This document shows, in pieces, positions 1,061-29,736 of a stretch of DNA of 34,554 nucleotides. The number at the start of each line of letters is the position of its first letter. Position 1 is the stretch's first letter. The DNA comes from an uncultured bacterium (lineage in GTDB: Bacteria > Planctomycetota > Planctomycetia > Gemmatales > HRBIN36), in contig CALLZJ010000236.1 of assembly GCA_937858435.1 (NCBI GenBank), positions 1 to 34,554 of the forward strand, given 5' to 3'. Both the position numbers and the translations under genes were made by a program. A model generated the notes under the pieces. It saw only the letters and a list, made by a program, of their open reading frames with translations, was not told the DNA's origin and searched no databases.

Positions 1061-2563
1061 CTAAGCCACCATCAGCCCGAAACCCCGGTAACGCAGCGCC
1101 CCGACGGCGATCGGGCCGGGAAGGGCGTGCGGGAAGCGCACCTGCACGTGATAGCGTGGGCCCTTCACCTTGGGTTGCTCCGGCAACTCGTAGCGGTCGG
1201 CGTGATCGACGCCGGGCAGGAAGCCGACCTTACGGAAGTCGATCTGCGTGGCCCGGAGCAGCTCGGGAGCGAAGCCAGCCTGGCGAAACGCTCTGGCGAT
1301 CAACTCGGCCGCCTTGTCGGGATCGCGGTCATCGTGGCCCGGCAGCACCACCGGTGTGACGGTCGACCAGGAGGTGGCCGGCTGCGTATACTGTCGCAAA
1401 ACCCAGTCCGATTTGGACAGGAGATTGAGCACGCCACGGATTTCGCCTTCCATGTCGACCAACTCAAAGCCCGCGAGCCGTTTGCGAGCGTAGTCGAGTT
1501 GCCGTTCGCAGCCAGGCGGGGCAACGAGCAGGACGCGACGGATGGCTCCGACATAATTTCCACGCTCGCCCCGCCGCTCGATGCTCGGCAACGGCAGAAA
1601 CATGAACCGCCGCTCGGCCCGTTGGCCCTTGATGGGTTTACTTTGCCCATCGTGGCCGTGAACGAAGGCCTCAACGGGATCCTGAGATTCAAAAGGCCAG
1701 CCATCACAGACCTGGCCGACGGCATGCCGCAGCCAAGCGGCGACGTCACGGACACGCCGAGGCGTGTCGAAGCTGCGGTTACCGACCAGCTCGGGCTTGA
1801 GGATTTGGAAGGCGGCGTAGGGACAGAGGTCGCTTTCCGTGGCCTTGCGGTAAGAAGTGACGCGGAAGGCAGAAAGTGGCGGAACGGGTAGGAACGACTC
1901 GTTGCCCCGTGCATCCCGCTGAAGTCGACTTAAAAAGGCCTGGTGCTTTGCCATTAAGTCAACAAGTGTGCCGTGCGTAGGAGTGCGAAGCTCTTCTCCT
2001 AATTCTTCTCCGGGAAGCCACCGATCTCCCGGGAGCCGTGCGGCCTCTTCTTTACTCAATAGGGCCGCATGCCCAACAACGTGGTCTATTCCCCAGCCCA
2101 GATGGGTGACGGCACGAGCCGCGGTCGGGAGGGTTTCTTTGTGCTGGTGGAATTCTGGATCGTCGTCCCGGATGGTGAACAGGTAATTGATCGCTTCCCC
2201 CTGTAAGTTTGCGGGCCAGACATCTTTCTCCGTTCGGAAGCTAGCGATGTCTTCGCTACCGCCACGACTCCAAGACTTGCCAACCTTGTCCCCCACGTTG
2301 TCGGGGACGTAATGACGCCTGCGCGTCGAGGCTGGGGTGGCTGGCGCCGCGATCACCTCGGGCGAAGGCTGGCGCTCAAGCCATTCCAAAGCCGGTACGG
2401 CATAGGCGAGGCGCATGCGTTCGTTCCAATAGCCGGCTGCGGCGGCGGCCAGGGCCTGAAAGAGCCGCAAGGGCGAGGGCGGCCACTCCGGCTCCCCGCG
2501 ATCGCCTCGCGCGTGGCTGTAGGGCTGAAGGAAGCGGATGGTAAAGCAGAGGCTACTCGGCAT
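1061..2563 (-). CDS. csb2: Type I-G Cas5-Cas6 fusion protein Csb2 (GSU0054 family)
   Basis: Cascade subunit of type I-G systems in which Cas5-like and Cas6-like RAMP parts are fused. It is expected to process pre-crRNA and hold the crRNA 5' handle. The protein is 500 aa from ATG 2563, starting MPSSLCFTIRFLQPYSHA. Family-like features are the N-terminal RAMP strand, a WPPSPLRLFQALAAAAA helix near residues 27-43, and a Gly-rich C-terminal strand (ALRYRGFGLMVA). The frame stays open upstream to 2626, but ATG 2563 is preferred because AAGGAGG lies 6 nt before it and the family starts with this strand. The gene overlaps the end of csb1 by 11 nt. I cannot assign the catalytic His of the Cas6 part with certainty. 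Confidence 0.92.
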   Translation of the reverse strand: MPSSLCFTIRFLQPYSHARGDRGEPEWPPSPLRLFQALAAAAAGYWNERMRLAYAVPALEWLERQPSPEVIAAPATPASTRRRHYVPDNVGDKVGKSWSRGGSEDIASFRTEKDVWPANLQGEAINYLFTIRDDDPEFHQHKETLPTAARAVTHLGWGIDHVVGHAALLSKEEAARLPGDRWLPGEELGEELRTPTHGTLVDLMAKHQAFLSRLQRDARGNESFLPVPPLSAFRVTSYRKATESDLCPYAAFQILKPELVGNRSFDTPRRVRDVAAWLRHAVGQVCDGWPFESQDPVEAFVHGHDGQSKPIKGQRAERRFMFLPLPSIERRGERGNYVGAIRRVLLVAPPGCERQLDYARKRLAGFELVDMEGEIRGVLNLLSKSDWVLRQYTQPATSWSTVTPVVLPGHDDRDPDKAAELIARAFRQAGFAPELLRATQIDFRKVGFLPGVDHADRYELPEQPKVKGPRYHVQVRFPHALPGPIAVGALRYRGFGLMVA

Positions 2564-3653
2564 TGGGCGCCTCCTTCTCCGCAGGCTTCTTGCCCTTCTT
2601 TCCCTTAGTCTTGGTGTCGCCCTCACCCTTCACATCGCGCACTGCCCGCTCCTTGTCGAATGGCACTGTCTCGCTCTTGCCGACACCGAAAGCCTTGGCG
2701 GCGGCCGTGGCAAACTGCAACGCATCGTTGTGTGTGAGTTTGATGGGCCTACGTTCGCCACTGGCATAGACTTCGACGAACTCGTTCTCCTGGATCCTTT
2801 CAGGATCGAGCACGAGTAGGCAGCCCTGGCGAAGGTAGCTCGATGGGCTGTGCGTGAAGGCGACCAGAGCGAGACCGAGGATGTAACGGCGCAGGGTTAT
2901 CGTCTTCTCCTGGTCCTTCGCCGCGTGAAGATGCCGGAGGGCGGCAAGTCCCAGAACCGCATCGCGACGTACGCCACCCGTCGCGATGACGCCACCGTGT
3001 GAGCCGGTCGCAGGTACATGGACGAAGCCACGCTCTGCATACGCGTCCTTGGTGGCCTTGTCGGTTGGCTCGTCGAGCAGCTTGTCGTTTACGTATTCAG
3101 TGGCGGGATTGAATTGAGCGGAACGCGTCAACTTCCGCACATTGAAGGCGCGAATCGTTGACGATACTAGCCGTGGCAGTTTGGCCTGAGTGTCGCGGGA
3201 ATCCCAAACGCCGAACACCAGCGACGTTGGCGCGATCTTGGCCAGGGCCGTTGCATCGCCCTTGAGCAGGCTCTTGAAGGCATCCTGAAGTTCTTGCTGT
3301 AGAGAGGAGCAGCGCACGATGGCGTCACCTGCGCGGTGCCCAGCTTCGAGAAGGTTGACTTCCTTCTCGCCAGCCTGAACGACTACTTGCGGGACCAAAT
3401 CCCTGTGCTTCTCGTCCGCGAAGAGTGGTTCGATGCGGTTCGCCTGGGCGCCCACGCTGTCGATTAGGCAGACGTTGGTGCCATTCGGATCGCCGTCAAT
3501 GTTGTACCCGCCGGGAAACCCGTCGCCAGCGGCGTAGGTCGCGGGAAAGAACACCCCATCCTTCCCCTCCACGGGCATGAGGTGCTCGCGGATGACGAGG
3601 GCCGCCGGGCCATCATCGGAGAGGTACTTGTCGAACTTGTTAAGGTCGCTCAT
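2553..3653 (-). CDS. csb1: Type I-G Cas7 backbone protein Csb1 (GSU0053 family)
   Basis: Backbone RAMP protein that polymerises along the crRNA in the type I-G effector complex. It is 366 aa. Family-like stretches are FFPATYAAGDGFPGGYNIDG near residues 36-55, CLIDSVGAQANRIEPLF near 62-78, and a central SLVFGVWDSRD followed by RLVSSTIRAFNVRKLTRS. The last 30 or so residues are a charged, low-complexity tail rich in Lys, Glu and Gly, probably disordered. Start ATG 3653 overlaps the stop of the upstream cas8 gene in an ATGA, with a GAGGTGA Shine-Dalgarno just before. Its end overlaps csb2, so the whole effector set is probably translated in a coupled way. Confidence 0.93.
   Translation of the reverse strand: MSDLNKFDKYLSDDGPAALVIREHLMPVEGKDGVFFPATYAAGDGFPGGYNIDGDPNGTNVCLIDSVGAQANRIEPLFADEKHRDLVPQVVVQAGEKEVNLLEAGHRAGDAIVRCSSLQQELQDAFKSLLKGDATALAKIAPTSLVFGVWDSRDTQAKLPRLVSSTIRAFNVRKLTRSAQFNPATEYVNDKLLDEPTDKATKDAYAERGFVHVPATGSHGGVIATGGVRRDAVLGLAALRHLHAAKDQEKTITLRRYILGLALVAFTHSPSSYLRQGCLLVLDPERIQENEFVEVYASGERRPIKLTHNDALQFATAAAKAFGVGKSETVPFDKERAVRDVKGEGDTKTKGKKGKKPAEKEAPNAE
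2570..2576 (-). promoter_or_regulatory. Ribosome binding site of csb2
   Basis: The minus-strand sequence AAGGAGG ends 6 nt before ATG 2563, inside the last codons of csb1. It is the strongest Shine-Dalgarno in the operon, and it fixes the csb2 start downstream of the longer open frame. Confidence 0.7.
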
Positions 3654-4453
3654 GCATCACCTCGGGCGGAAAGGGGAACAGCGGATCGGAAGGCCTTGTG
3701 TTTGCGTTGTCCGGTGCGGAACCAGTTCTCAAAGCGGAAGCCCAGTGATGTCGGGTCCGCGATATGGCCTGTCACTGCTGCGGGGAGCACCACTGGCGGT
3801 AGCGGCACCGTCCAAGTGAAGTAGTTGAAGACGCGCGGTTTGTCAGTTCGTGGCGGTAATGCTCGTTGCAGGCCGATCAAGCACATCAGTTCAACGGCAG
3901 GATGCGCGAGAGTCGTAAACTGCAGGTCGTTGGCCGAGAACCCCACGTCCCGAGAGTGTGCGTTGGGGCAACGACGCGCATCAAAGTAGTACGGTTCAAC
4001 CTTCTTGGACGGGTTCTCGGGGTCGTAGGCAATCAAGCCAACGTCGAAAAGACTCTCCGTCAAGCAGCGAGGCTCAACTAGGCTCTGCCTTAGCGCATCA
4101 GCAATGCGGAAACTCTCCATCGTACCAGCCCACGGCTTGAGTTCCTTGCCGCCAGCCACTTCATCTTGCCACCAGTCCAAGGTCAACGTGCGGAACGGCT
4201 GGCCAATCGAAATCCGCGTTGATGTCGCATTTTCACTATCAAGAGGCTCCATTTCTGCCTGGAGAAGTGACCTCACGAGAACCTCCAACGTCCCCCCGCA
4301 CTTCATCCGAAACTCCCGTCCGTCTTCCGCGAACCAGCCTTCCGCTCCCGGCCAGAGGCGGTCGGCAAGTTCCAACAGCCCGCAGCAGGCGAAAAACTGG
4401 CCGGGGTTGGTCGGGTCCACGTTCACCCGGATGCTCGGTTCAGGTAGGTTCAT
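3650..4453 (-). CDS. csb3: Type I-G Cas8-like protein (Csb3/GSU0052 family)
   Basis: Small large-subunit-type Cas8 of type I-G systems, 267 aa, found between cas3 and csb1 exactly as in the GSU0051-GSU0054 order. In the effector it is expected to recognise the PAM and contact the target. The N-terminus carries the family signature VDPTNPGQFFACCGLLELAD (residues 12-31), followed by a LTLDWWQDE segment near 90-98 and YYFDARRCPNAHSRDVGFS near 155-173. Both ends overlap neighbours by ATGA (4450-4453 with cas3, 3650-3653 with csb1). Assignment rests on recognised motifs plus conserved gene order. Its exact biochemical role is inferred from other type I systems. Confidence 0.88.
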   Translation of the reverse strand: MNLPEPSIRVNVDPTNPGQFFACCGLLELADRLWPGAEGWFAEDGREFRMKCGGTLEVLVRSLLQAEMEPLDSENATSTRISIGQPFRTLTLDWWQDEVAGGKELKPWAGTMESFRIADALRQSLVEPRCLTESLFDVGLIAYDPENPSKKVEPYYFDARRCPNAHSRDVGFSANDLQFTTLAHPAVELMCLIGLQRALPPRTDKPRVFNYFTWTVPLPPVVLPAAVTGHIADPTSLGFRFENWFRTGQRKHKAFRSAVPLSARGDA

Positions 4454-6939
4454 GCGTCACCCTCCGTCAGGTACTGCGAAGGCGCAGCGCTGGCGGCCCA
4501 GTCGGCGGCCCGCAGCAGCGACTCCAGATAGGCCAGCCCCCACCGGCCGTACTTCCGCTGGAGGCGGGCGAACCGCCGCGGCGTCTCGACAGCGAGGTGG
4601 TCGGCATCGGCCTGCGGCCGCTCCGGGTCGAATGCTTCTTCTTGCGAAAAGTGCGGCCGGCCTCGGCCATGATGGGCGGCGATCAGATGCAACACGAGGT
4701 CTTGCTGATCTTCACTGAGGTTCTTGAGTTCAGGTTGGGTCATCACGTCCAAGAGCGATCCAAATTCGTGGCGATAAGTCTCGTCCAAGCGGCCGCCACG
4801 CTTCCGGCCCGACTTGGCCAGCTTGACTTGCGGGTAATCTGAATTGCCGAGTACTCTTTGGAATGCCTTGCGATCCTTGCCGTGGTCGTGGAACTGGGCA
4901 GCCATGCGAAGCGCAACCTCTAGATCGTTGGAAAGCGACAAGTTGTCCAGGATGCGGTCACATGCGTTGACCACGTCGTTGACGTGAACGTCCCAAAGCA
5001 CCGGCAGCTTCGCAGACTTGTCGCCCTCGTTCCGCAGGGCGAACCACTCCCACATCTTCTCCTCGGCATCCTCGTCCGCACCGGGGAATGTGATCGTGAA
5101 GACCGAATGCAAGCCATCGGTCTTCTCATCGAACCGCTCATCGCCGCTCCACACCCGCGCCCGCTCGGCGGTGTCGGCCACGTCCAACTCCGGCCGGCCC
5201 TCGACCGTCCCGTTCAGCATTCCGCCTTCCAACCCGCCGGCCGACGGCGGGAGCAGTACCGTCATGCCCTCGATTCCATCCCTGTTGTCCTTTTCGGCGA
5301 GTTCCTTCAGCGTCGTCACTTCCACCTTGCCGTTGTCGTCAACGAACCAGACGGGAACGGTCGCGCCAGCCAAGCGCTTCGCCATCGCCTCGAACTGCTT
5401 GAACGCCCGATAGCTCGGCTCCTTTAGCAACTCATGTGGCTTGAGCGGGTAAGCTTCGAGCAATTCCATCGGTTTGTATTTGTCCAACAGGTCGCCGGTG
5501 ATCTTCTCCACCTCTTCCCGCCAGGCGACCTGCGTTTCCGGTGGTTGCCATTCCGCAATGCCGTGAAGGTACGGTTCGACCGGTGGGCGGCCTGGCAGTT
5601 TGCCCTTGATGCTGGTGAGCGCCCAGGCGTCGAACAGGATGTCAGTGGCCGGCAAGATGGTCGGCGTCGGGGCGAAGGCTGCTTGGCGGGCGACGGGATC
5701 GAGATTGCCGAGCGCTGTCGGGCTGCCGTTGCCCTCCAGTTGTTGAAGCAATGGGAGCGTGCGCTCCAAACGTTCTTGGTAGGCAGCGTCCTTGTGCTCC
5801 GTCGAGCAGATGACGTAGATCTCGCTGTCGTTCCGAAGGCCAAAGCGATTCACCCGGCCGAACCGCTGGGCCATACTGTCGAGCGTGGAAAGATCGCAGA
5901 CGAGGTGGTCCGCTGAGATGTTCACACCAACCTCGCCGGCGGCGGTGCAGACGAGGTAGGTCGTCGCTTCGTCGGACTGCCCGCCGGGCAGAAACCGCTT
6001 GAAAAGCGCCTGCTCGGTTAGTTCATCCCGCTCCTTGCCCCGCATCGTGCCGGTGAGGGTGACGACGCGATCCTTCGGCAGCTTGCCTGCGATCTTGAGC
6101 ACGTCATCGACCGTGCGAGCGAATACCAGCACGGCCCGGTTCCTATTGGCCAGCTCGAGAGCCTTGGCCGCGAGCTGGTCGGCCAACTTCTTCGCATCCT
6201 GCGTTAGCTCCAGGTGAAGCTTTTTCCTCGCCGCGACCCGCTCCTTCACGACGGTGTTCTTGTGGTCTTCGTCGGACAAGCCGAACGGCGTTACCTTACC
6301 CCGGCTGGTGGCGGTCAGTTCCATCACCCGCAGCGGTTTGAAGTCCTTGCAGCGGTCTTGCTCGTCGCGGATGGCTTCGATGAGTGTCTGGAACGCCGGT
6401 TCGAGGTGCGCCTCGTCGTGGACGAGCAGCGCGTCCTGGCCGAGGAAGCCGGCGTGCAGCGGCTTCGCCCTGAAGCCAACGCCATAGCCGCTGAACAACA
6501 GCCGCGAACCGATCATGTCCACCGTGCCGCAGATGACCGCTGGACGGGACGGGTCGGCGGACCACTCGCGGTTGTCGGCGAACTGGCCGCGCAGGGTGCT
6601 CAGTGCCAGGCCTCGGCCACCGAGCCAGTTTCGCAAAGACTCTAATTCAGGTGTTGTTTCAATGGCTTCCCGATACTTCTTCACTTCCTCTGTCGTCTGA
6701 TCGACCACCGTACGCCGATTGACGACGTAGACCAGTCGCTTCGGCAGCTTGTTCTGGGTGTTCGCCAGGGCGATCAGCCAAACGGCAATGACGGACGTCT
6801 TCCCCAGCCCCGTCGGCAGATTGCAGCAGGCCACCTTCTCCCATTCCCCCGCCAGAAGATGCTCGTACATCTTCTCCTGCCAGGGAAACGGCGCATGGCC
6901 CGTCAGATGCTCGAAAGTGCTCCCGAACGCTGCGTTCAT
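4450..6939 (-). CDS. cas3: Type I-G Cas3 helicase-nuclease with C-terminal HD domain (GSU0051 family)
   Basis: Effector nuclease-helicase recruited by the crRNA complex to unwind and degrade target DNA. Translated from ATG 6939 it is 829 aa. SF2 helicase motifs come first: Walker A LPTGLGKT (residues 41-48), motif II HDEAH (174-178), motif III ELTATSRG, and motif VI MAQRFGRVNRFG. The HD nuclease follows at the C-terminus with FHDHGKDRKAF (HD at about 684-685) and HLIAAHHGRG downstream. Helicase-then-HD is the reverse of most type I Cas3 proteins and fits the type I-G family. The open frame extends to a TTG at 6969, but ATG 6939 has GAGG about 8 nt upstream and starts just before the conserved FPWQEKMYEHL segment. 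It is the first gene of the operon, transcribed away from the RHS array. Confidence 0.95.
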   Translation of the reverse strand: MNAAFGSTFEHLTGHAPFPWQEKMYEHLLAGEWEKVACCNLPTGLGKTSVIAVWLIALANTQNKLPKRLVYVVNRRTVVDQTTEEVKKYREAIETTPELESLRNWLGGRGLALSTLRGQFADNREWSADPSRPAVICGTVDMIGSRLLFSGYGVGFRAKPLHAGFLGQDALLVHDEAHLEPAFQTLIEAIRDEQDRCKDFKPLRVMELTATSRGKVTPFGLSDEDHKNTVVKERVAARKKLHLELTQDAKKLADQLAAKALELANRNRAVLVFARTVDDVLKIAGKLPKDRVVTLTGTMRGKERDELTEQALFKRFLPGGQSDEATTYLVCTAAGEVGVNISADHLVCDLSTLDSMAQRFGRVNRFGLRNDSEIYVICSTEHKDAAYQERLERTLPLLQQLEGNGSPTALGNLDPVARQAAFAPTPTILPATDILFDAWALTSIKGKLPGRPPVEPYLHGIAEWQPPETQVAWREEVEKITGDLLDKYKPMELLEAYPLKPHELLKEPSYRAFKQFEAMAKRLAGATVPVWFVDDNGKVEVTTLKELAEKDNRDGIEGMTVLLPPSAGGLEGGMLNGTVEGRPELDVADTAERARVWSGDERFDEKTDGLHSVFTITFPGADEDAEEKMWEWFALRNEGDKSAKLPVLWDVHVNDVVNACDRILDNLSLSNDLEVALRMAAQFHDHGKDRKAFQRVLGNSDYPQVKLAKSGRKRGGRLDETYRHEFGSLLDVMTQPELKNLSEDQQDLVLHLIAAHHGRGRPHFSQEEAFDPERPQADADHLAVETPRRFARLQRKYGRWGLAYLESLLRAADWAASAAPSQYLTEGDA

Positions 6940-7054
6940 GGCCGACCTCGCCAAGAGGACAATCGTCAAGAGTGTACGTCCGCATCCTGGTGCGGTCTAG
7001 GAAAATCGCCATCCAATTCGAAAGGGCTTGGTTGCGTGACACAACTCGCCGACG

Positions 7055-11280: not shown

Positions 11281-11637
11281 GGTCAGTTGATCACCGAATG
11301 GCAGGCCCGCGGGGGCGCTGTGAATACGAGCACTTCACCCAAGGCGCAATACGCCTACTCGGAGATGCCGAGCGGGGCGAATCATCCGCGCCTGTCTTCG
11401 ATCACGTATCCCAATGGCCGGGTCATCACGTACAACTACGCCGCCGGCTTGGCGAGCGACATCTCGCGGCTCTCCTCCATCAGCGACGGCGGCACGACAC
11501 TCGAAGGCTTCGACTACCTCGGCCTGGGCACCATCGTCCGGCGAGCACACCCCGAAGCGGGCGTCGACCTAACCTACATCAGGCAGGGCATGGAGTCGGA
11601 CGGTGACGCGGGCGACAAGTACACGGGCCTGGACCGC
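11281..11637 (+). repeat. Near-identical 357-bp RHS core block shared with cassette 6 remnant
   Basis: Positions 11281-11637 and 17733-18089 align without gaps and with few substitutions. Because the copies flank cassettes 3 to 5 in direct orientation, recombination between them could excise or duplicate about 6.5 kb. Confidence 0.8.
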
Positions 11638-13203
11638 TTCGGCCGGGTTGTGGATCAGCGCTGGCTCAAGACGAGCAACGGCAGTCACGTCGACCGGTTC
11701 CAGTACGGTTATGATCGCAACGGCAATCGGCTCTACGAGCAGAACCTCGTCGACGCGGCGTTCAGCGAGTTGTATCACGCTAACGGTGCGTCGAATGGTT
11801 ATGACCAGCTGAACCAACTCACGGCCTTCCGCCGGGGTGTGTTGTCGGATACCAACAGCGACGGTATCCCCGATACGGTCAGTTCGCCGAGCCGGACGCA
11901 GGAATGGCTCTTCGATCCGCTGGGCAACTGGACGACGTTGACGACGAATGGCACGGCCCAGAGCCGGACGCATAATCGGCAGAACCAGATTACGTCGATT
12001 ACCAGTCTCACCACGCCGAGTTATGATGCCAATGGCAACATGACGGGTGATGAGAATGGCAAGACGCTGGTCTATGATGCCTGGAACCGGCTGGTCGACT
12101 ACAAGAACGGGTCCACGTCGCTGGAAGCGTATCAGTACGATGCCCTGGGCCGACGCGTGCAGCAAGGCTCAACCGCTCTCTACTACTCCGCCGACTGGCA
12201 AGTGATCGAGGAGCGCGACGGCGGCGGCATCGCCCGTGTCTCCATGGTCTGGAGTCCCGTCTACATCGATGCGATGATTGCCCGCGACCGCGATGCCGAT
12301 GTTAACGGTTCGCTGGAAGAACGCCTCTACGTCGCCCATGATGCGAACTTCAATGTCTCGTCGATCCTGAACACCGGTGGCTCAACCCTCGAACGCTTCA
12401 TCCTCGCCCCCTACGGCAGTCCGACGTTCCTGAACGGCAGCTGGTCCGCCATCGGCGCCTCGGCGTACTCCTGGACGCACCTGCACCAGGGCGGGCGCTT
12501 TAGCAGTGGTAGCGGCCTGTATGTGCAGAACGAAGGGAGCTTCTCGGCTACTCTTGGATATCTGGTCGCCGCAGCAGCATCTCCAGGCGGGAAGCCCGCC
12601 CTCGCACGCTATCGGAACCAAGGTGGCCCCAAAGATCCGCTCGGCGATCACGAAGACGCGTACATGCCTCCAAGGGAGGGTGATCTGATAATCCGCGGCT
12701 GCGACTACCAAGGAGCCAAGCCACTTCCGTGGAAAGAAATCCACGAGTACTGCAAGAAGCGAGGCGCGACCAGTCCGGACAAGCAATTCTGTGATCACAA
12801 GAGCTTGTGTGACTATCTAAGCACCGTCGAAGGCAATGGCGCATTTGGCCGCTTGTTCCTTGTTGGTCATTGCGGCGGCAAGCTCCCGCCTGGCGTTCGG
12901 ATCGGCAACCAATCTCGCCTCACTTGCGACTCCCTAAGTGAAGAGTGCAAGAGAGAGATCAAGCGCCTTGTGCGGCCTGGAGGTACAGTAGTCCTATGCG
13001 CTTGTGGGTATCGCAATGAACTCCCTCCAGGCGACTTCGACAAGGAGCTGAGTTGCTGGGCCAGAGTACTTGGCTTGCGCGTGTGCGCTTGCGACTCCAA
13101 GATGGAGGTGTACAATCCCGCGCGAGGTGGCAACCGCGAGGGCATTTGTGCTTGCTACAAGGGCATCGATGGCACGCGAGGCCGTTGGCACTGCAAGCCA
13201 TAG
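11287..13203 (+). CDS. RHS orphan-tip cassette 3: longest RHS core in the array with Cys-rich tip
   Basis: 638 aa from a TTG; core homology already starts at 11264. This is the only cassette keeping the full core between segments A and B, with many YD-type repeats such as YAYSEMPSGANHPRLSSITY, FQYGYDRNGNRLYEQNLV, YDANGNMTGDENGKTLVYD and YQYDALGRRVQQGSTALYY. Segment B then diverges. The usual HFRHRE...LGRW(x)NDP block is replaced by YVQNEGSFSATLGYL, although DPLG survives at residues 450-453. The tip (454-638) has GRLFLVGHCGG (His528), TVVLCACG (Cys573), LRVCACDS and the ending GRWHCKP, so it belongs to the same family as tips 1 and 2. The partner gene starts 15 nt downstream. No ribosome binding site or true start is visible. 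Confidence 0.8.
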   Translation: MITEWQARGGAVNTSTSPKAQYAYSEMPSGANHPRLSSITYPNGRVITYNYAAGLASDISRLSSISDGGTTLEGFDYLGLGTIVRRAHPEAGVDLTYIRQGMESDGDAGDKYTGLDRFGRVVDQRWLKTSNGSHVDRFQYGYDRNGNRLYEQNLVDAAFSELYHANGASNGYDQLNQLTAFRRGVLSDTNSDGIPDTVSSPSRTQEWLFDPLGNWTTLTTNGTAQSRTHNRQNQITSITSLTTPSYDANGNMTGDENGKTLVYDAWNRLVDYKNGSTSLEAYQYDALGRRVQQGSTALYYSADWQVIEERDGGGIARVSMVWSPVYIDAMIARDRDADVNGSLEERLYVAHDANFNVSSILNTGGSTLERFILAPYGSPTFLNGSWSAIGASAYSWTHLHQGGRFSSGSGLYVQNEGSFSATLGYLVAAAASPGGKPALARYRNQGGPKDPLGDHEDAYMPPREGDLIIRGCDYQGAKPLPWKEIHEYCKKRGATSPDKQFCDHKSLCDYLSTVEGNGAFGRLFLVGHCGGKLPPGVRIGNQSRLTCDSLSEECKREIKRLVRPGGTVVLCACGYRNELPPGDFDKELSCWARVLGLRVCACDSKMEVYNPARGGNREGICACYKGIDGTRGRWHCKP

Positions 13204-13923: not shown

Positions 13924-15141
13924 TTGCAACCAGTTCCAGCCTTCCGCTTCACCAGCTACGACGCGGCCGGCTCGGGAACTATTGTGAACGAGGTGGAGCG
14001 GGGGTACAATGGTCTGGGTCAGTTGATCACCGAATGGCAGGCCCACGGGGGCGCTGTGAATACGAGCACGTCAACGAAGGTGCGGAGTTCAGGCCGTGCG
14101 GGCCAGCGACTGCACGCCGATGGTGCTGCCTGGCCCGTCGACCGTCCACGCCGACCCATGCGCCGCCCTTCCTGGCGCAACCGCCGGACCAAACAAGGCG
14201 GCACGGCGCTGTACTACTCGGCCGACTGGCAAGTGCTCGAAGAGCGCGACGGTGGCGGCATCGCCCGCGTCTCCATGGTCTGGTCGCCGGTCTACATCGA
14301 TGCGATGATTGCCCGCGACCGCGATTCGGACAGCAACGGCTCCCTCGAAGAACGGCTGTACGTGGCCCATGACGCGAACTTCAATGCCAGTTCCATCATC
14401 AATACCAGCGGCTCGGCCGTCGAACGCTTCATCCTCGACCCCTACGGCAGCCCGACGTTCCTCGACGGCAGTTGGAGCGCCATCGGCAGTTCCGCCTATG
14501 CTTGGACGCACCTGCATCAAGGCGGCCGACATTCGAGTGCGAACAACCTCTACCACTTCCGTCATCGCGACCTGAACCCCACCCTGGGCCGGTGGATAAC
14601 GAATGACCCGATTGGATTTGCTGCGGGCGACGAGAACTTCCTGCGAGTGGCCGGAAATCAACCGGTCGACAATGTTGATCCGCTCGGCCTAATGCTGTGT
14701 CCAGAAGGCAAGCGCCTAGCCCATGTACAATACTGCCTAATTGAACATTCTGAGTATCGAGGGACTGGCTGTCAAATCACGCAACGTCCTGGTCCAGCCC
14801 CCGAACCGGATGGCTGTTCGCTCCCGGATTGGCTAAACTGGGGTTCACAAAGCGTCGGAAGGCGAATCTTCCTGGACTGCTGCAACAAGCACGACGAATG
14901 CTACTCCACATGCTCGAGGGGTAACAGGCAATCAAACTGTGACACGGCGTTCTTGCAGTGCATGCTCAAACGGTGCCAACTTGAGAAGCGCTGGCAAGGT
15001 TTTTGGTTCAGCTTGTCTGGATGCTATGAAATTGCCCTAGCGTTTTATGATGCAGTTCGACTATTTGGTGACAGCAGATACGTTGCCGCAAAAAACCAAG
15101 CCTGCGTCTGCTGTTGCTCCGACTTCGGGTGTCGCCTATGA
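13924..15141 (+). CDS. RHS orphan-tip cassette 4: RHS-core fragment with phospholipase A2 tip
   Basis: 405 aa from a TTG at 13924. RHS homology begins about 13942 with FRFTSYDAAGSG, then segment A, a basic linker like that of cassette 1, and segment B ending GRWITNDPIGF. The hallmark VDPLGL lies near residues 251-256. The tip (256-405) carries the phospholipase A2 signature CCNKHDECY (residues 319-327, catalytic His323 with Asp324 binding Ca2+). CDTAFLQCMLKRC follows, and LPDWLNWGS sits upstream where the Ca2+ loop belongs. It would hydrolyse the sn-2 ester of phospholipids, a membrane-damaging activity. The many Cys residues suggest disulfides and function outside the cytoplasm. The partner gene overlaps its stop by ATGA. 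No convincing start or ribosome binding site is present. Confidence 0.85.
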   Translation: MQPVPAFRFTSYDAAGSGTIVNEVERGYNGLGQLITEWQAHGGAVNTSTSTKVRSSGRAGQRLHADGAAWPVDRPRRPMRRPSWRNRRTKQGGTALYYSADWQVLEERDGGGIARVSMVWSPVYIDAMIARDRDSDSNGSLEERLYVAHDANFNASSIINTSGSAVERFILDPYGSPTFLDGSWSAIGSSAYAWTHLHQGGRHSSANNLYHFRHRDLNPTLGRWITNDPIGFAAGDENFLRVAGNQPVDNVDPLGLMLCPEGKRLAHVQYCLIEHSEYRGTGCQITQRPGPAPEPDGCSLPDWLNWGSQSVGRRIFLDCCNKHDECYSTCSRGNRQSNCDTAFLQCMLKRCQLEKRWQGFWFSLSGCYEIALAFYDAVRLFGDSRYVAAKNQACVCCCSDFGCRL

Positions 15142-23056: not shown

Positions 23057-25324
23057 ATGGTCGATCGTCCACTCACTATCCCCGTGGTTGCCGAGCCAAG
23101 TCGCGGCGTTGCCTCGACCTTGGCTACCGTGCCGGAAAACGGCGTCGGCCCCACGCTCGGGTCGCTGTGGCCCACGCTTCTCACCACGCTGCCGCCCCCC
23201 GAACGCCAGCGCCTAGTCGACCAGGCCGCGGAGGCCGGGTTCATCGTCACCCAGCCCTGGCCCGATCACGCCGGCAGCGCCGCCGCTTTGACCCCCGCTC
23301 AGTGGCTGCTCGATGAGCTTGCGGCCGGCTTTCTCGAGGGGCTCCACCAGCGTCAGCCCCCGCCGCCGCCTGGCGATCCTGCCCTGCTTTCGGTCCCGCG
23401 CGCCGATCAGACCGTCGCCGCGGCTCTCGCCAGCCCGGACCTTTTCCTCCTTGTTCATGGAGCCCATGCCGACCCGCTCCCCTGGATCGCACGCTGCCTC
23501 GAAGCCGCCGTGCGCGCCGGCGAGCGTCTCCTGGTGCTGCTCCCGCCTGCCGCCGCCAGCGATGGCCGCTGGTCCACCTGGCTCGAACATCAGGAACTTT
23601 TCACAACGGTCGTCGCGGCGCCCGAGCTTCTCGGAGCAGCGGACAGTGCCTGGTCTCGCGTTGCGCTCGGCCGACGGATCGAAGCGATGCATGCCCACCT
23701 GGCCGCGGATGTGGCCCGCCGCCAGGAGTTGCTCCAGGCCGTGGTCCAGAGCGCGGAAGCCAGGGTGTGGGCCGCTCAGGACTGGCGGGGCCGCTGGCTG
23801 CAACTCGGGGAGATGCGGGCAGCGATCGAACAGCAAGTGCAGTCGCTCGCCGGTATCGCCAAACAGGTCAAGGGCATCCTCATGGGGTCGGAGCGGGAAC
23901 CGACTCTGGAAGTGGCCCATCGCCACCTGGCCGAGGAGCAAGAGCGGCACGAGGCGGCCTATCTCGATCTGCAGACCAGGCTGAACGAAGCGGAAGCCAA
24001 GCGCCATGAGCTTTGGCTGCAGGTCGAGAAGTGGCGGCAGCAAGTGAAGCAACAGGAGGAGTTCCTGGCACAACGCAGCGCTTTGAAGCCCTGGCATCCG
24101 CGCTGGTGGACGTCGCTGTTCCAGGGCCGTGGCAAGCAGCGGCTCGAAGAGTTCCGCACCCGTTGTGCCGAAGCCAAGGAGGCTCTCGAGCAGGCCGAAG
24201 AGGGGGTCCGCGATGCACTCAATATGCTCGAGATCGAAACGCAGCGCCACACGGCCGCCCGCGATCAGATCATCGCCGATGCGGTTCGCCAGCGGCAGGA
24301 GTCGGTAAACCAGGAGCTGGCGGAAGTGCGTGGCCGAATCGCCGAGGCCGAGCGTGATTGGGCCGAACTCGTGGCCGCGCTCGATGGTGCGGGCCAGGTG
24401 GAAGTGTGCCCCCAGGAAGCCGACCTGGAGCCGCTCATCGATCTGGCCAACCGGCGATTGGCAGAAGCCCAGTCGGCCCTGGCCCGGCATCACGCCAAAC
24501 TCCCCGATGAAGCTCAGTTGCGCGACCTGCTCCTGGATCGTTATTCGGGCCTGGTCATCGTCCTGGCTCCTGGTGCCGAAGCAGTGATGCCCGAACTGCT
24601 CGGCAAGCGGCCCTTCGATCGCCTGATCGCCACGACCACGGAGACGCGTCCAATTGCTGCCCTGCGCGGCTGGCTCGGGTTGGCACGGCGCGCGATCCTG
24701 GTCGGGGCCGACGGCGGGGACAGCGAGTTTGCTCGTTGGCTGGGGCTGTTGAAGACCGGCGCGCTCACCACGACGTTGACCTGGCATTCCAGCGGCGACC
24801 GGCTGCGGTGCGTGTGGGACGCGGAACGGCACAAGAGCGGAACCGACGTCCAAATGGAAAACCTGGTCACGCATCCGGATGTGGAGTTGCAGATCGCCAC
24901 CGATGCCGCGGGGGAGCCAAGGCTGGTCGCGGTCGAATTCCCCGCCGAACGCTTCTCGATCGTCGAGGCCAAGCGGATTCTGTACGAGGAACTCGGTGAG
25001 TTGACGCTGGCGCCGGGATGGGCCCTGCCCCACTGGCAGTTGACCCCGGCGGGCTGGGTCTGGGCCCTGGGTGCCGACGCTGGCGAAGGAGCGGGCACGG
25101 CCGTAGAACTCGAACCGGGCCTGCGTGAAGTCATGTCTCAGGAGGCTGACGGAGTCTGGCAGACGCGGCGGCTGGAATTCTCCTTGGCGCACGAGTGGAA
25201 CTGGGACAGAATCTGGGAGTGGATGATGCAACACCTGGCCGGCTCGGCGCTGGCCCGGTTTGCGTCTCTCGAGGCTGTCGACCATGCGCCCGAAGTCCGC
25301 TCCGAGGCCCCCAGGGGCCGGTGA
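23057..25324 (+). CDS. Large coiled-coil protein resembling an SF1 helicase with degenerate ATPase motifs
   Basis: 755 aa from ATG 23057; GTG 23000 (774 aa) is equally open and neither has a strong ribosome binding site. A hydrophobic strand then VHGAHADPLP, followed by a helix and GERLLVLLPPAAA, matches where SF1 helicases of the DNA2/NAM7 type have GPPGTGKT and motif Ia, but the Walker A residues are missing. About 250 residues of charged coiled coil follow (EEQERHEAAYLDLQTRLNEA and similar). Then come FDRLIATTTETRPIAALRGW and RRAILVGADGG, which sit like motifs II and III (DEA..., VGDPxQ) without their acidic residues. The C-terminal 200 aa are unrecognised. I infer a non-catalytic helicase-like scaffold. 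The next gene starts directly after its stop. Confidence 0.7.
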   Translation: MVDRPLTIPVVAEPSRGVASTLATVPENGVGPTLGSLWPTLLTTLPPPERQRLVDQAAEAGFIVTQPWPDHAGSAAALTPAQWLLDELAAGFLEGLHQRQPPPPPGDPALLSVPRADQTVAAALASPDLFLLVHGAHADPLPWIARCLEAAVRAGERLLVLLPPAAASDGRWSTWLEHQELFTTVVAAPELLGAADSAWSRVALGRRIEAMHAHLAADVARRQELLQAVVQSAEARVWAAQDWRGRWLQLGEMRAAIEQQVQSLAGIAKQVKGILMGSEREPTLEVAHRHLAEEQERHEAAYLDLQTRLNEAEAKRHELWLQVEKWRQQVKQQEEFLAQRSALKPWHPRWWTSLFQGRGKQRLEEFRTRCAEAKEALEQAEEGVRDALNMLEIETQRHTAARDQIIADAVRQRQESVNQELAEVRGRIAEAERDWAELVAALDGAGQVEVCPQEADLEPLIDLANRRLAEAQSALARHHAKLPDEAQLRDLLLDRYSGLVIVLAPGAEAVMPELLGKRPFDRLIATTTETRPIAALRGWLGLARRAILVGADGGDSEFARWLGLLKTGALTTTLTWHSSGDRLRCVWDAERHKSGTDVQMENLVTHPDVELQIATDAAGEPRLVAVEFPAERFSIVEAKRILYEELGELTLAPGWALPHWQLTPAGWVWALGADAGEGAGTAVELEPGLREVMSQEADGVWQTRRLEFSLAHEWNWDRIWEWMMQHLAGSALARFASLEAVDHAPEVRSEAPRGR

Positions 25325-26314
25325 ATGACCGCTGCCGCCCGCGGCCTGCCCGCCAGTGTTGCCCTCGGTCGACTCGCTCGCCTGCTCCCCGAGCCGCCCT
25401 CTCACGGCATGTGGCTCGGTTGGCTCGACTTGCTCAACCTCGAACTCCTCGTGGACGTCGCCGTCCGTGAACCTCTCGATCCCCTGGAGTCCTGGCTCCT
25501 GGCCGCTGCCGCTCCGCCCGCGACGCTGCCCTCGCCTGACGCCATGGCGAACAACGCAGGCCTCGTCCATCGCCTTAGGCAGCGGGCCGTGCAGCGTAGC
25601 TGGCTTGAGCCCATGGGCGATTCGTGGATTCTTACCCCGGCAGGAGCGGCAGCGCTGGTCTCGGGTCAGCACCGAAACACCCGCCAGGAACGCCGGTCTT
25701 TCGCCTCCCTGCCCTCACCCACGGGCGGCCAGATCGGCTACATCCCCGTCCCCGCGTCCACTCCGATCAAGTTGCGGCCAGCACTGGTGGACCTCAAGGA
25801 CCTCCGGGGACGACTCGAGCGCTGCCTGGCCGAGAATGAGGATTGGAAGACCCGGCATGGCTTTCCCTTGGAAGTCGCGGGCATCGTCGCGGCGGCTCCG
25901 GAGCCCTGGCAAGCTGTCCCGCTCGGCTGCACGGTGGAAGTCTGCTTCCTCTTGGCTGTCGGCGAGCGCTGGCGGCTCTATGCGGCCGACCCGGCTTACG
26001 GCCGGCTGATGCCCTCGACGCCCATCATGGAGTGCGCGAGTCTGGACGAGTTTAAGGAAGTCTTCGGCGAGCATCTGCCGCAGGCGCTGCTGTCGTCGGA
26101 CTGGCAGCGAGCCTGGGAGCGGGGGGCCCGGAGCAATCGCTGGCCGGCGGGCAAGGCCGTGCGGAGCCCTCGCTTCGGCCAAGAGGTAACGCTCCGGATC
26201 GAACTCGATCGGCTAAGTACGGCTCCAGCCGAGGAGCAATGGTTGATGGCCGGACATGGTCCTTGGCATGCCGTGGCTCGACTCGAGTTTCTGCCCCCGA
26301 GCCGGAATCCATAG
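25325..26314 (+). CDS. Unknown protein cotranscribed with the helicase-like gene
   Basis: 329 aa. The ATG follows the TGA of the preceding gene with no gap, so translation is coupled and the two products probably act together. The first 125 residues are helical and rich in Leu and Ala (LPEPPSHGMWLGWLDLLNLE), with LEPMGDSWILTPAGAAALVS resembling the end of a winged-helix unit. From about 150, a mixed alpha/beta domain includes IKLRPALVDLKDLRGRLERC, VEVCFLLAVGERWRLYAADP and WLMAGHGPWHAVARLEF. No catalytic motif, signal peptide or membrane segment is seen. I do not recognise the family. Confidence 0.7.
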   Translation: MTAAARGLPASVALGRLARLLPEPPSHGMWLGWLDLLNLELLVDVAVREPLDPLESWLLAAAAPPATLPSPDAMANNAGLVHRLRQRAVQRSWLEPMGDSWILTPAGAAALVSGQHRNTRQERRSFASLPSPTGGQIGYIPVPASTPIKLRPALVDLKDLRGRLERCLAENEDWKTRHGFPLEVAGIVAAAPEPWQAVPLGCTVEVCFLLAVGERWRLYAADPAYGRLMPSTPIMECASLDEFKEVFGEHLPQALLSSDWQRAWERGARSNRWPAGKAVRSPRFGQEVTLRIELDRLSTAPAEEQWLMAGHGPWHAVARLEFLPPSRNP

Positions 26315-26421: not shown

Positions 26422-28572
26422 ATGAAGAATTGGCGACTCATGATGATGGGCATCGGCATCGGTGCCCTCCTCCCGGCCCTGGCCGCGAGCGTCCTGCCGT
26501 TGGCCTCGGCCCAGCCCGGCGGCGGCCCCCCGACCGGCACCGCTCCCCAGCAGCAGTCCCTGCCCGTTGTCCGCGTCGTCCTGTTCAGCAGCGGCGTGGG
26601 GTACTTTGAGCACTTCGGCACGGTCGCGGGCAACACGACCACCGAACTGCGCTTCAAAACCGCACAAATCAACGACATCCTCAAGAGCCTCGTCCTCCAG
26701 GACATGGACGGCGGCAAGGTGACCACCATCACCTATCCGTCGCAAGACCCCATCAGCAAAACCCTGCGCAGCTTTCAGGTCGACATCACCGACAACCCCA
26801 GCCTCGCCGACCTGCTGAACCAGCTTCGCGGGGCGAAGGTGAAAGTCTCGGTCGCGACGACCGAACTCGCGGGCACCATCCTCGGGGTGGAAACCAAGCA
26901 GAAACCCATCGGCGATGGCAAGTTCGTGCCCACGCCGGTGCTGAACCTGCTCGCGGGCGCGACGATCCGGTCGGTCGAACTGCCCGACGTCCGGGAACTG
27001 TCGCTCGAAGACCCGCAACTGCAAGCGGAGCTGACGCAGGCGCTTGTCGCGCTGGCGGCGGCGCGGGATCAGGATAAGAAGCCCGTCGGGATCAACTTTC
27101 TCGGCGAGGGTGAGCGGCGCGTGCGCGTCGGGTACGTCGTCGAAACCCCCATCTGGAAGACCAGCTACCGGCTGATCCTCGACGACCCCAAAGCCGTCGG
27201 CGAAGACGGCAAACCCAAGCCCGGCGGAAACTTGCAGGGATGGGCCATCGTCGAAAACCAGACCGACAACGACTGGACGAACGTGCAGCTCAGCCTGGTG
27301 TCGGGTCGGCCGATCAGCTTCGTGCAGGATCTGTATCAGCCGCTGTACCTGCCGCGTCCGGTGGTGCAGCCGCAACTGTACGCGAGCCTGCGCCCGCAAC
27401 AGTATGAAGGCGGATGGGGCGGCGGTGGCGCTGGTGGTACGGACGACCGGGCCATGAACGCCCCCGCGCCGGCCTCTCCCATGCCGTCCGCCGCCCGCGC
27501 CCGTCGTGAGGCCGGTGCAGCCGGCGGACGTCTCGGCACCGCCGCCGAAGCCGATGAGATGCAAGCCCTCGACGCCGCCAAGAGCATCGAGTCCGTCGCA
27601 TCCGCCGCCCAGGTGGGTGAGCTGTTCCAATACACCGTCGGCAACGTCAGCCTGCCGCGTCAGAAGAGCGCGATGATCCCGATCATCACCGATCCGCTCA
27701 GCGTCGAGCGCGTCAGCATCTTCAACCTGCAGGTGCTCGCGAAGCATCCGCTGAACGGCGCGATCCTCACCAACACGACCGACAAGCACCTGCTGACCGG
27801 CCCGATCACCGTCTTCGACGGCGGCGGGTATGCCGGCGACGCGCAGATCGACAACGTGCCCCCGGGTCAGCAGCGTCTGCTCAGCTACGGGATCGACCTG
27901 CAGGTCGTCGCCGACGCCGCCAAGAACGAGCAGACCAACACGATCCAGACCGGCAAGATCGTCCGCGGCGTGCTGAACGTGCAGCGAAAGGTTGTCCACA
28001 AGCACACCTACGCATTCGAGAACAAGTCGCCGACGAACAAGACGATCGTCGTCGAACACGGCCGATTTGGTGGGGATTGGACGCTTGTCGATACCCCCGA
28101 ACCGTTCGAGAAAACCGACGACGTCTACCGCTTCAAGCTGCCCGTCGAAGCGAACAAGACCAACGAGATCGCGATCACGCAGCAAATCGTGCAGAGCGAA
28201 GGCTTTGCGATCCTCAATGCCGACGTCGGGCAATTGCAGTTCTACTCGCGCCAAGGCGCCATCCCGCAAAACGTGCGCGATGCCCTGATCGAGGCGATGA
28301 ACCGTAAGGTGGCGCTGGTGGAGGTCGAGCGCAAGATCAACGAGGTCGATCGGCAGTTGCAGTCGATCACGCAGGAACAGACCCGCATCCGCGAGAACGT
28401 CCGCACGATCAACGACCGCAACGACGCCTACTACAACCGGCTGCTCAAGAAGCTCGATGAGCAGGAAAGCCAGATCGAGAAACTGCAACAGGACCGCGCC
28501 AAGCTCGTCGCCGAGCGCGAGCAGAAGCAGGCGGAGTTGGAGAATTATCTCCAGAACCTGAACGTCGGATAA
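26422..28572 (+). CDS. Secreted DUF4139 domain protein
   Basis: 716 aa with AAGGAG 6 nt before ATG 26422. A signal peptide covers residues 1-30 (MMMGIGIGALLPALAASVLP). The mature N-terminus has VVRVVLFSSGVGYFEHFGTV and RFKTAQINDILKSLVLQDMD, typical of the DUF4139 family in planctomycetes. The core contains VRVGYVVETPIWKTSYRLIL and GWAIVENQTDNDWTNVQLSL, the hallmark beta-sandwich portion. A Gly/Ala/Pro-rich linker (about 330-370) splits the domain. The C-terminal 100 residues form a coiled coil (VEVERKINEVDRQLQSITQE...). Members are cell-envelope proteins of unknown biochemical function; some are annotated mucoidy inhibitor-like. No gene fills 26315-26421. Confidence 0.88.
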   Translation: MKNWRLMMMGIGIGALLPALAASVLPLASAQPGGGPPTGTAPQQQSLPVVRVVLFSSGVGYFEHFGTVAGNTTTELRFKTAQINDILKSLVLQDMDGGKVTTITYPSQDPISKTLRSFQVDITDNPSLADLLNQLRGAKVKVSVATTELAGTILGVETKQKPIGDGKFVPTPVLNLLAGATIRSVELPDVRELSLEDPQLQAELTQALVALAAARDQDKKPVGINFLGEGERRVRVGYVVETPIWKTSYRLILDDPKAVGEDGKPKPGGNLQGWAIVENQTDNDWTNVQLSLVSGRPISFVQDLYQPLYLPRPVVQPQLYASLRPQQYEGGWGGGGAGGTDDRAMNAPAPASPMPSAARARREAGAAGGRLGTAAEADEMQALDAAKSIESVASAAQVGELFQYTVGNVSLPRQKSAMIPIITDPLSVERVSIFNLQVLAKHPLNGAILTNTTDKHLLTGPITVFDGGGYAGDAQIDNVPPGQQRLLSYGIDLQVVADAAKNEQTNTIQTGKIVRGVLNVQRKVVHKHTYAFENKSPTNKTIVVEHGRFGGDWTLVDTPEPFEKTDDVYRFKLPVEANKTNEIAITQQIVQSEGFAILNADVGQLQFYSRQGAIPQNVRDALIEAMNRKVALVEVERKINEVDRQLQSITQEQTRIRENVRTINDRNDAYYNRLLKKLDEQESQIEKLQQDRAKLVAEREQKQAELENYLQNLNVG

Positions 28573-28656
28573 GCGTCAAACATGCTTGCCGCGAGACGGG
28601 GCGTCGCTCGATGGCGACGCTCCGATTTCGTAATGCTCCATCCCGAGGAGGCTCGT

Positions 28657-29736
28657 ATGTGGCGGATGATCTGCGCGTTGCTGGTGTCGATGTCGCTAAT
28701 TCATGGATGCACAAAGAAGGAACCGCAATCCATCACGAACGAGGGTCCAACCAACCCAGTCGCGAGCGTGGCGCTTGAGGATGGCCAAACCCTCAGCGGG
28801 CCTTACACGAGCGGCAATCTCGCGGTCTACCTCGTGCACGGCCCGGATCGCACCGGCGGGCGGCGCTATCTCACGCTCGCCGAGGCGATGGAGCAGAACA
28901 AGCTGATCGTGCATGAGACGGGAGACGTTAACACGCTTGCCATCGAATGTGTCAGCGACGACATCGTCTTCATCCCCGCCGGCTCGGTCGTGAAAGGCGG
29001 CAAGCAGGATCGCACGCTCGGCAGCGACGTGATCATCACGCGCGACGATGGGAAGATGCCGATCGACGCGTTCTGCGTCGAGCAAGGCCGCTGGCGCCAG
29101 CGCGGCGGGGAGACGGTCGCGCACTTCGCCTCCGCGCCGTCCATGGTCGCGGGGCGTGAACTGAAGATCGCCGCCAACGCGAACATTCCCGGGCTGAACA
29201 AGCAAGGCGAGGTCTGGGAGAACGTCGCCCGGGCGCAGGTGCGTCTCAGCACCGCGCTCAACGCCGACGTGCGTGACGAAGCCTCCGCCAGCAGTTTCCA
29301 GCTCACGATGGAAAATCAGAAGCTGCGTGCCGCGATGGAAACGCGCCAGCGCGGGCTCGTGAGCGTGATCGATGGGCGCGACGACGTCGTCGGCTGGGTC
29401 TACGCGATCAACGGCCAGCCGGTGTCGGGAAATGTGTACGCATCGCCCGACCTCTTTCGCAAGCTCTGGCCGAGGCGGCGGGGGCCGGCGGCGGGCGAGG
29501 CGCGCGCCGGGGGGTCCGGGCCGCCCCCCCAGCCCGCCGGCGAGATCGTCGAAACCCCCGCCCCCGCGCTCGAAGACGCCGCCGCCCTGCTCGCGACTGC
29601 GCGCACCGAAGGCGCGCAGCGTGAAGTCAACGGCCGAACCACCGTCAACACCTACGACTCCTCCGACACGGTCCATCTCGAAACCGAAGACCGCGCCAAC
29701 GGATACATCCTGCATCGCAGCGTGCTCAGAAAATAG
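28657..29736 (+). CDS. Lipoprotein with DUF6569 (ARPP-1) domain
   Basis: 359 aa from ATG 28657, with GGAGG 7 nt upstream; the frame stays open to 28582. The N-terminus MWRMICALLVSMSLIHGC is a lipoprotein signal with Cys18. The domain at about 40-260 has NLAVYLVHGPD, YLTLAEAMEQNKLIVHE, DIVFIPAGSVVKGGKQDRTL and DAFCVEQGRWRQRGG, the conserved landmarks of DUF6569. The family was described by association with ADP-ribosylglycohydrolase and phosphatase genes; its activity is unknown. A Pro/Gly/Ala-rich linker (about 275-310) leads to a polar C-terminal segment. It follows the DUF4139 gene by 84 nt on the same strand, and both products are exported. Confidence 0.8.
   Translation: MWRMICALLVSMSLIHGCTKKEPQSITNEGPTNPVASVALEDGQTLSGPYTSGNLAVYLVHGPDRTGGRRYLTLAEAMEQNKLIVHETGDVNTLAIECVSDDIVFIPAGSVVKGGKQDRTLGSDVIITRDDGKMPIDAFCVEQGRWRQRGGETVAHFASAPSMVAGRELKIAANANIPGLNKQGEVWENVARAQVRLSTALNADVRDEASASSFQLTMENQKLRAAMETRQRGLVSVIDGRDDVVGWVYAINGQPVSGNVYASPDLFRKLWPRRRGPAAGEARAGGSGPPPQPAGEIVETPAPALEDAAALLATARTEGAQREVNGRTTVNTYDSSDTVHLETEDRANGYILHRSVLRK

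Follow-up and report, generated by a model that had tools for sequence, protein, structure and literature searches.

What does a helicase core do once it is no longer a motor? The question is raised by two adjoining genes in a stretch of 34,554 nucleotides (nt), here called the window, from an uncultured bacterium of the order Gemmatales (Planctomycetota; GenBank assembly GCA_937858435.1, contig CALLZJ010000236.1). The first gene encodes P1, a helicase-like protein of 755 amino acids (aa), and the second encodes P2, a 329-aa partner. A first-pass annotation, made from the sequence alone, had proposed both open reading frames (ORFs) with zero spacing between them, and this is borne out: the ATG of P2 begins at the base right after the TGA of P1 (sequence context GGCCGGTGAATGACC). 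Each gene is present in one copy in the source metagenome-assembled genome (MAG; 4.1 Mb in 473 contigs).

The annotation also saw in P1 an intact gene that had lost its ATPase residues. This is supported for P1, and the loss recurs across its family. We give about an even chance to the reading that P1 is an ATPase-dead, Gemmatales-specific derivative of a helicase of the Upf1/IGHMBP2 type (superfamily 1B, SF1B), serving as an ATP-independent scaffold for nucleic acids or nucleoproteins, to which P2 would belong as a coupled subunit. Known pseudohelicases are scarce, and most are isolated examples, whereas here a single order holds a series that runs from an intact-looking helicase to a motorless protein, the motor having been lost separately at least twice and probably six times. 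Such a natural series allows the opening question to be put directly. It also lets one ask if a two-gene module of defence-like character has become a core part of the cell.

Anatomy and predicted fold of P1

P1 had been described as keeping the order of an SF1 helicase of the coiled-coil-insert type, with VHGAHADPLP standing where Walker A should be and LIATTTETRP where motif II should be. Alignment with relatives places both segments as proposed, the former in the block that reads GxPGTGKS in full-length relatives and the latter in the motif II block, which reads, for example, VIEQAD or ILEEAH. At these positions HGAHADPL does not fit the Walker A pattern GxxxxGK[ST], and TTTE lacks the acidic DE pair of motif II. 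The helicase order itself is kept only in part. RecA1 is present, but RecA2, with motifs IV, V and VI, is missing, the protein stopping ∼15 aa past an additional domain that we call A3, about where the RecA1 fold ends. Full-length relatives, of ∼1000 aa, have a further 220–350 aa beyond A3 that carry motifs IV–VI, and they match through AAA_11/AAA_12, neither of which matches P1. Matches of P1 to PIN_8 and Rad50 were below the cut-off and were discarded as coiled-coil matches. Given this anatomy, P1 is not a motor.

That P1 descends from an SF1 helicase of the coiled-coil-insert type is nevertheless supported. When the full-length relative L213 is aligned to IGHMBP2 (E 1.8e-17) and to Upf1, motif I, motifs II/III and motifs IV–VI come in order, and this alignment puts the coiled coil at the place of 1B/1C and A3 after motif III, ahead of the last RecA1 strand. 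In the model of P1 the coil consists of three long helices (residues 204–277, 285–341 and 359–444). In the 14-row P1 alignment 12 columns are invariant; all of them lie in the A3 domain, of ∼170 aa, and every one is present in P1 (W576, E601, L611, F628, P629, K639, G688, E691, T703, F708, W714 and W722). A search of the A3 profile against the sequences of solved structures gave no relative (three matches, best E 0.17). It is this domain and the coil that are conserved across living and dead forms alike.

The structure of P1 was predicted with AlphaFold2 from a 20-row alignment that included helicase relatives, with a mean predicted local distance difference test score (pLDDT) of 74.8 and a predicted template modelling score (pTM) of 0.48. 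The model has RecA-type strands around the three long helices, together with an α/β A3 domain. Comparison with VIA-align ranked IGHMBP2 first (Z 16.2, root-mean-square deviation (rmsd) 6.8 over 227 residues, model residues 74–740 on chain residues 158–440), with Dna2 (Z 15.1, rmsd 3.6, 209 residues) and Upf1 (Z 14.0, rmsd 4.8, 218 residues) also matching; all three matches are restricted to RecA1. With Foldseek alone, coiled coils dominate. The predicted model thus contains a RecA-like fold, the feature on which the helicase reading had been staked in advance, and it suggests that a RecA1-type fold of the Upf1-like SF1B kind persists in P1.

Repeated loss of the motor within Gemmatales

P1 is not a product of chance. 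Matches to it were found in 14 of 61 near genomes (E≤1e-3), and five of the six other genomes of the same taxonomic family have a relative with 26–30% identity. A profile of the A3 domain matches 74 of 102 Gemmatales genomes (60 of the 71 good ones) at E≤0.001, in 76 places, or about one copy each. Across the phylum, where just 5–8 candidates were scored per genome, the A3 profile matched one genome of 392, the source genome itself, and the P2 profile matched two; rarity outside Gemmatales is likely for both, although not proven. We found no publication on the A3-domain family in the open-licence literature. SF1B helicases and pseudohelicases are already known, and what is notable here is the recurrence of the loss inside one order.

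Motifs were tabulated for 76 loci, and a P1 tree was built from 69 rows with the columns of motifs I and II left out, after fragments of <500 aa (L158, L160, L163, L179 and L180) and two far rows (L200 and L201) had been dropped. The tree largely parallels taxonomy, and the family is both widespread and largely vertical in its presence. RecA2 is present in 30 of the 69 rows and absent from 39. Among the RecA2-bearing rows, 27 have a readable P-loop and all of these retain its GK (the other three are cut by contig ends), whereas Walker A is absent from 37 of the 39 short rows. The other two short rows, both from g23, have Walker A without RecA2, an intermediate state implying that RecA2 was lost first. 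An exception to this pairing of RecA2 with Walker A is the far relative L201 (1119–5492, + strand), a 1458-aa protein with RecA2-like motifs and no Walker A. Motif II is unusual in the full forms as well: it reads DEA in four of the 30 RecA2-bearing rows, with EDA, EEA, EQA and other forms in the rest, so that the full forms too are only putative ATPases.

On the P1 tree the presence of RecA2 changes at least six times, four of these changes falling on starred branches, and a single clade of all short rows is rejected by the approximately unbiased (AU) test (p-AU 2.4e-6). The P1 of the window groups with the five full-length rows of family f1 (97, starred). Its P2 groups with genus g2 of f1 (93/79) on a P2 tree from which L210 and L212 were left out. 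The trees and the taxonomy favour a truncation in the window that arose separately from that of the large short clade; the AU test does not. Erosion proceeds by degrees within f1. Genus g2 has GAPGTGKS or GEPGTGKS with EQAD; g3 and g5 follow, with GPPASGK[KT] and L[QD]AH in the former and GLPATGKR and LEAE in the latter; and the window, with HGAHADPL and TTTE, stands at the end.

The motorless form is under purifying selection in relatives, since the ratio of nonsynonymous to synonymous substitution rates (dN/dS) is 0.16–0.31 in seven pairs of relatives that lack RecA2. Over the dead P-loop half it is 0.11–0.33 in six of these seven, those without Walker A.

The coupled partner and neighbouring genes

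P2 had been called a protein of unknown family, and that description now stands only in part. It has no Pfam match at E≤1 and no PADLOC match at E≤0.01, but its model (mean pLDDT 83.8) contains a predicted winged helix, and its relatives show weak matches to the MarR, IclR and ArsR families. Outside residues 49–115 there was no match in the structure comparison list. C167, W174, K175 and F180 are invariant in 12 aligned rows. At E≤0.001, relatives of P2 occur in 31 of the 102 Gemmatales genomes; in three of these (G008, G018 and G051) the relative is of a more distant type that adjoins another helicase, and two more (G474 and G479), 74–75% complete, have no P1 match.

P1 and P2 adjoin one another in 19 loci, and in 15 of them the frames overlap by 4 nt (14 ATGA, one GTGA). 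The window has its 0-nt junction, and gaps of 65–244 nt separate the genes in the remaining three loci, which include both g23 loci without RecA2. Seven further genomes have both genes, though not together within the stretches read. By raw counts, P2 accompanies 21 of the 30 RecA2-bearing rows and five of the 39 short rows.

P2-like proteins are found after other SF1B helicases as well, at loci L211, L212, L238 and L239. The one at L211 matches the P2 family (99.6% probability) and also MkoB, the partner protein of the Mokosh type I system (PADLOC, 6.8e-12, profile positions 10–102 of 610), whereas the P2 family and an MkoB-like protein, when compared directly, match weakly (17%, E 1.4e-3). 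P2 thus appears to belong to a Gemmatales winged-helix family whose nearest named kin would be, by way of the L211 bridge, the N-terminal module of MkoB.

Features of the P1–P2 locus (positions in the window)
Feature	Positions	Strand	Basis or remark
P1, 755-aa pseudo-helicase; RecA1 with two insertions, without RecA2	23057..25324 (TGA included)	+	
Walker A position, residues 133–142, VHGAHADPLP	23453..23482	+	aligned relatives
Coiled coil, residues 204–444	23666..24388	+	model; position relative to IGHMBP2
Motif II position, residues 523–532, LIATTTETRP	24623..24652	+	aligned relatives
Motif III-like strand, residues 546–555, AILVGADGGD	24692..24721	+	relatives: WVLIGEP
A3 domain, ∼residues 557–740, last RecA1 strand at its end	24725..25276	+	
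P1/P2 junction, TGA-ATG, 0 nt	25322..25327	+	relatives mostly ATGA, 4-nt overlap
P2, 329-aa partner with predicted winged helix	25325..26314	+	
P2 predicted winged helix, residues 49–115	25469..25669	+	MarR of E. coli (4jba), Z 8.8, rmsd 2.6 over 67 residues
P2 conserved C-x6-WK-x4-F(P), residues 167–181	25823..25867	+	12-row alignment

Some further observations concern relatives of the pair. A second SF1B helicase/P2-like pair in G048 (L238, 4664–13079) lies beside ORFs that, judged by reading, are phage portal- and terminase-like. On another contig of the source genome, locus L245 (G000:C303) matches the C-terminal part of the MkoB model, on the side of its phospholipase D (PLD) domain (3.1e-16). 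A transglutaminase-like gene is found ∼30–620 nt upstream of P1, on the same strand, in 37 loci from 17 genera (L020, L021, L027 and their relatives); three members were scanned against Pfam, and the gene is common in f2 loci and absent from the window. We draw no functional conclusion from it.

Elsewhere in the window, positions 1061–6969 (− strand) hold CRISPR-Cas genes, comprising Cas_GSU0054, Cas_GSU0053, one unnamed ORF and a Cas3-like helicase with an HD domain, which we take to be of type I-U/I-G. An ORF at 11287–13203 (+) has an RHS repeat match (3.4e-8), and one at 13924–15141 (+) matches group XII secretory phospholipase A2 (PLA2G12, 5e-12), which is unusual for a bacterium. Downstream of P2 are a DUF4139-like gene (26422–28572, +) and a gene for an ARPP-1 domain protein (28582–29736, +; 2e-46).

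Possible roles and known systems

How might an ATPase-dead scaffold of this kind have arisen, and how would it act? In an ancestral Upf1/IGHMBP2-type helicase the coiled coil would have grown into 1B/1C and A3 would have been inserted, with the RecA1 shell retained; P1 no longer has Walker A, motif II or any part of RecA2. The protein would work without ATP, its surface of RecA1, coiled coil and A3 gripping a nucleic acid or nucleoprotein target, and P2, translated from the same message, would bind P1 or that same target. A structural or regulatory role, which the first-pass annotation had put forward, is the natural reading of a protein with lost ATPase residues and a predicted RecA fold. Its further suggestion, a part in DNA repair or in defence, is not directly supported: a near-universal, single-copy gene in one order resembles a housekeeping gene more than a patchily distributed defence system, though the nearest named relatives of P2 are in Mokosh. 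More tentatively, and with less likelihood than the scaffold reading itself, the coil and A3 may do the work with the motor optional, lineages dropping RecA2 first and then the P-loop, and a Mokosh-like module may have been domesticated for housekeeping.

Several points weigh against the scaffold reading. The P1 model has the confidence scores given above and was built with helicase relatives already in its alignment. On the P1 tree, a topology that places the window row inside the short clade of 33 rows survives the AU test (p-AU 0.154). The nearest relative of the window P1 is only ∼28–30% identical, and the selection figures belong to other relatives, not to the window copy. Most short relatives are without P2, so that P2 is not needed everywhere. 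Finally, a tie between loss of P2 and loss of RecA2, suggested by the raw counts, is not significant once descent is controlled for (four independent pairs).

The alternatives differ in what the pair would be for. It could be the remnant of a Mokosh-type anti-phage system, an MkoA-like and MkoB-like pair that became fixed in the order, lost its kinase and PLD domains, and is now decaying or acts as a sensor or regulator in defence. The MkoA model does match 10 of 14 family members and has the best E-value in the PADLOC list of P1 relatives (2.3e-43), P2-like genes do follow MkoA-like or other SF1B helicases at the four loci named above (the L211 and L238 helicases were scanned with PADLOC), and the L211 protein links MkoB to the P2 family. 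We nevertheless think this unlikely. The matches to MkoA come through the generic SF1B core, P1 itself has no PADLOC match at E≤0.1, a Pfam scan found no kinase or PLD domain in P1 or P2, the direct link between P2 and MkoB is weak, and near-universal, single-copy presence in Gemmatales is unlike that of a patchy defence gene. Somewhat less likely again is an accessory factor of the HelD kind, now working without ATP, in which the coil would reach into a machine such as RNA polymerase and P2 would contact DNA. A long coiled coil in a helicase core, together with a coupled protein whose predicted winged helix is MarR-like, would suit such a factor, and HelD is described as a helicase-like NTPase whose coiled-coil arm enters RNA polymerase (PMC7749165). 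The same source describes its release as needing ATP, however, and for P1 the core is of the Upf1-like SF1B kind and no link to RNA polymerase was seen.

The remaining alternatives would deny the pair a function or even its existence. In favour of a gene on its way out, retained by chance in this MAG, are the graded loss of motifs and domains in f1, the length of the branches (1.68 for P1 and 1.68 for P2) and the lack of a close relative. We regard this reading as improbable in view of the 755 and 329 open codons, the exact coupling, the invariant residues kept in both A3 and P2, the low dN/dS of the short relatives and the persistence of the short form through a clade of 33 rows. An error of assembly or gene calling might be suspected in so fragmented a MAG, the more so because a longer antisense ORF of 819 aa (23213–25672, − strand) overlaps P1 and part of P2, and codon-position G+C content fails to separate the two, the antisense frame looking equally good. 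The + strand frame was chosen because homology supports it, and short relatives without Walker A, present in Gemmata sp. IIL30 and in named scaffolds that include the complete Limnoglobus roseus PX52 chromosome, refute the artefact, to which we assign almost no probability.

A match to a further named system proved uninformative: the NCBIfam model PLuB_AAA gave matches for 10 of the 14 family members, but its cut-off is reached in none of the genomes and E. coli and B. subtilis, used as controls, match too, so that the match is to the generic helicase core. No paper on a 'PLuB system' was found in the literature.

Among known systems, HelD has a UvrD-like core. It shares with P1 a helicase-like core and a coiled-coil arm, and differs in its ATP-dependent release and in the Upf1-like SF1B nature of the P1 core. 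Mokosh type I likewise comprises two genes, for an SF1B helicase (MkoA) and a partner (MkoB), and the L211 protein matches the N-terminal ∼100 positions of MkoB; the window pair departs from it in having no kinase, PLD nuclease or PADLOC match and in its vertical, single-copy inheritance. MkoB is listed as carrying a PLD-like nuclease domain (Table 1, PMC10952713). The Upf1-like SF1B helicases themselves (IGHMBP2/SMUBP-2, UPF1, SETX and Dna2) have the RecA1 fold that is predicted for P1 and are matched in sequence by the full-length relatives, whereas the window P1 is without Walker A, motif II and RecA2, has its coil in place of 1B/1C, and has gained the A3 domain.

For a helicase fold that outlives its motor, parallels come from other helicase families. 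PriA of D. radiodurans retains both helicase domains. It is described as keeping DNA binding and partner contact without ATPase activity, and yeast Utp25, for which retention of both helicase domains is likewise described, as essential even though its DEAD-box motifs are dispensable. In these proteins the fold has been retained, as is predicted for P1, while the motor residues are lost or dispensable, but P1 has gone further in having lost RecA2 as well, and in Gemmatales the loss has recurred.

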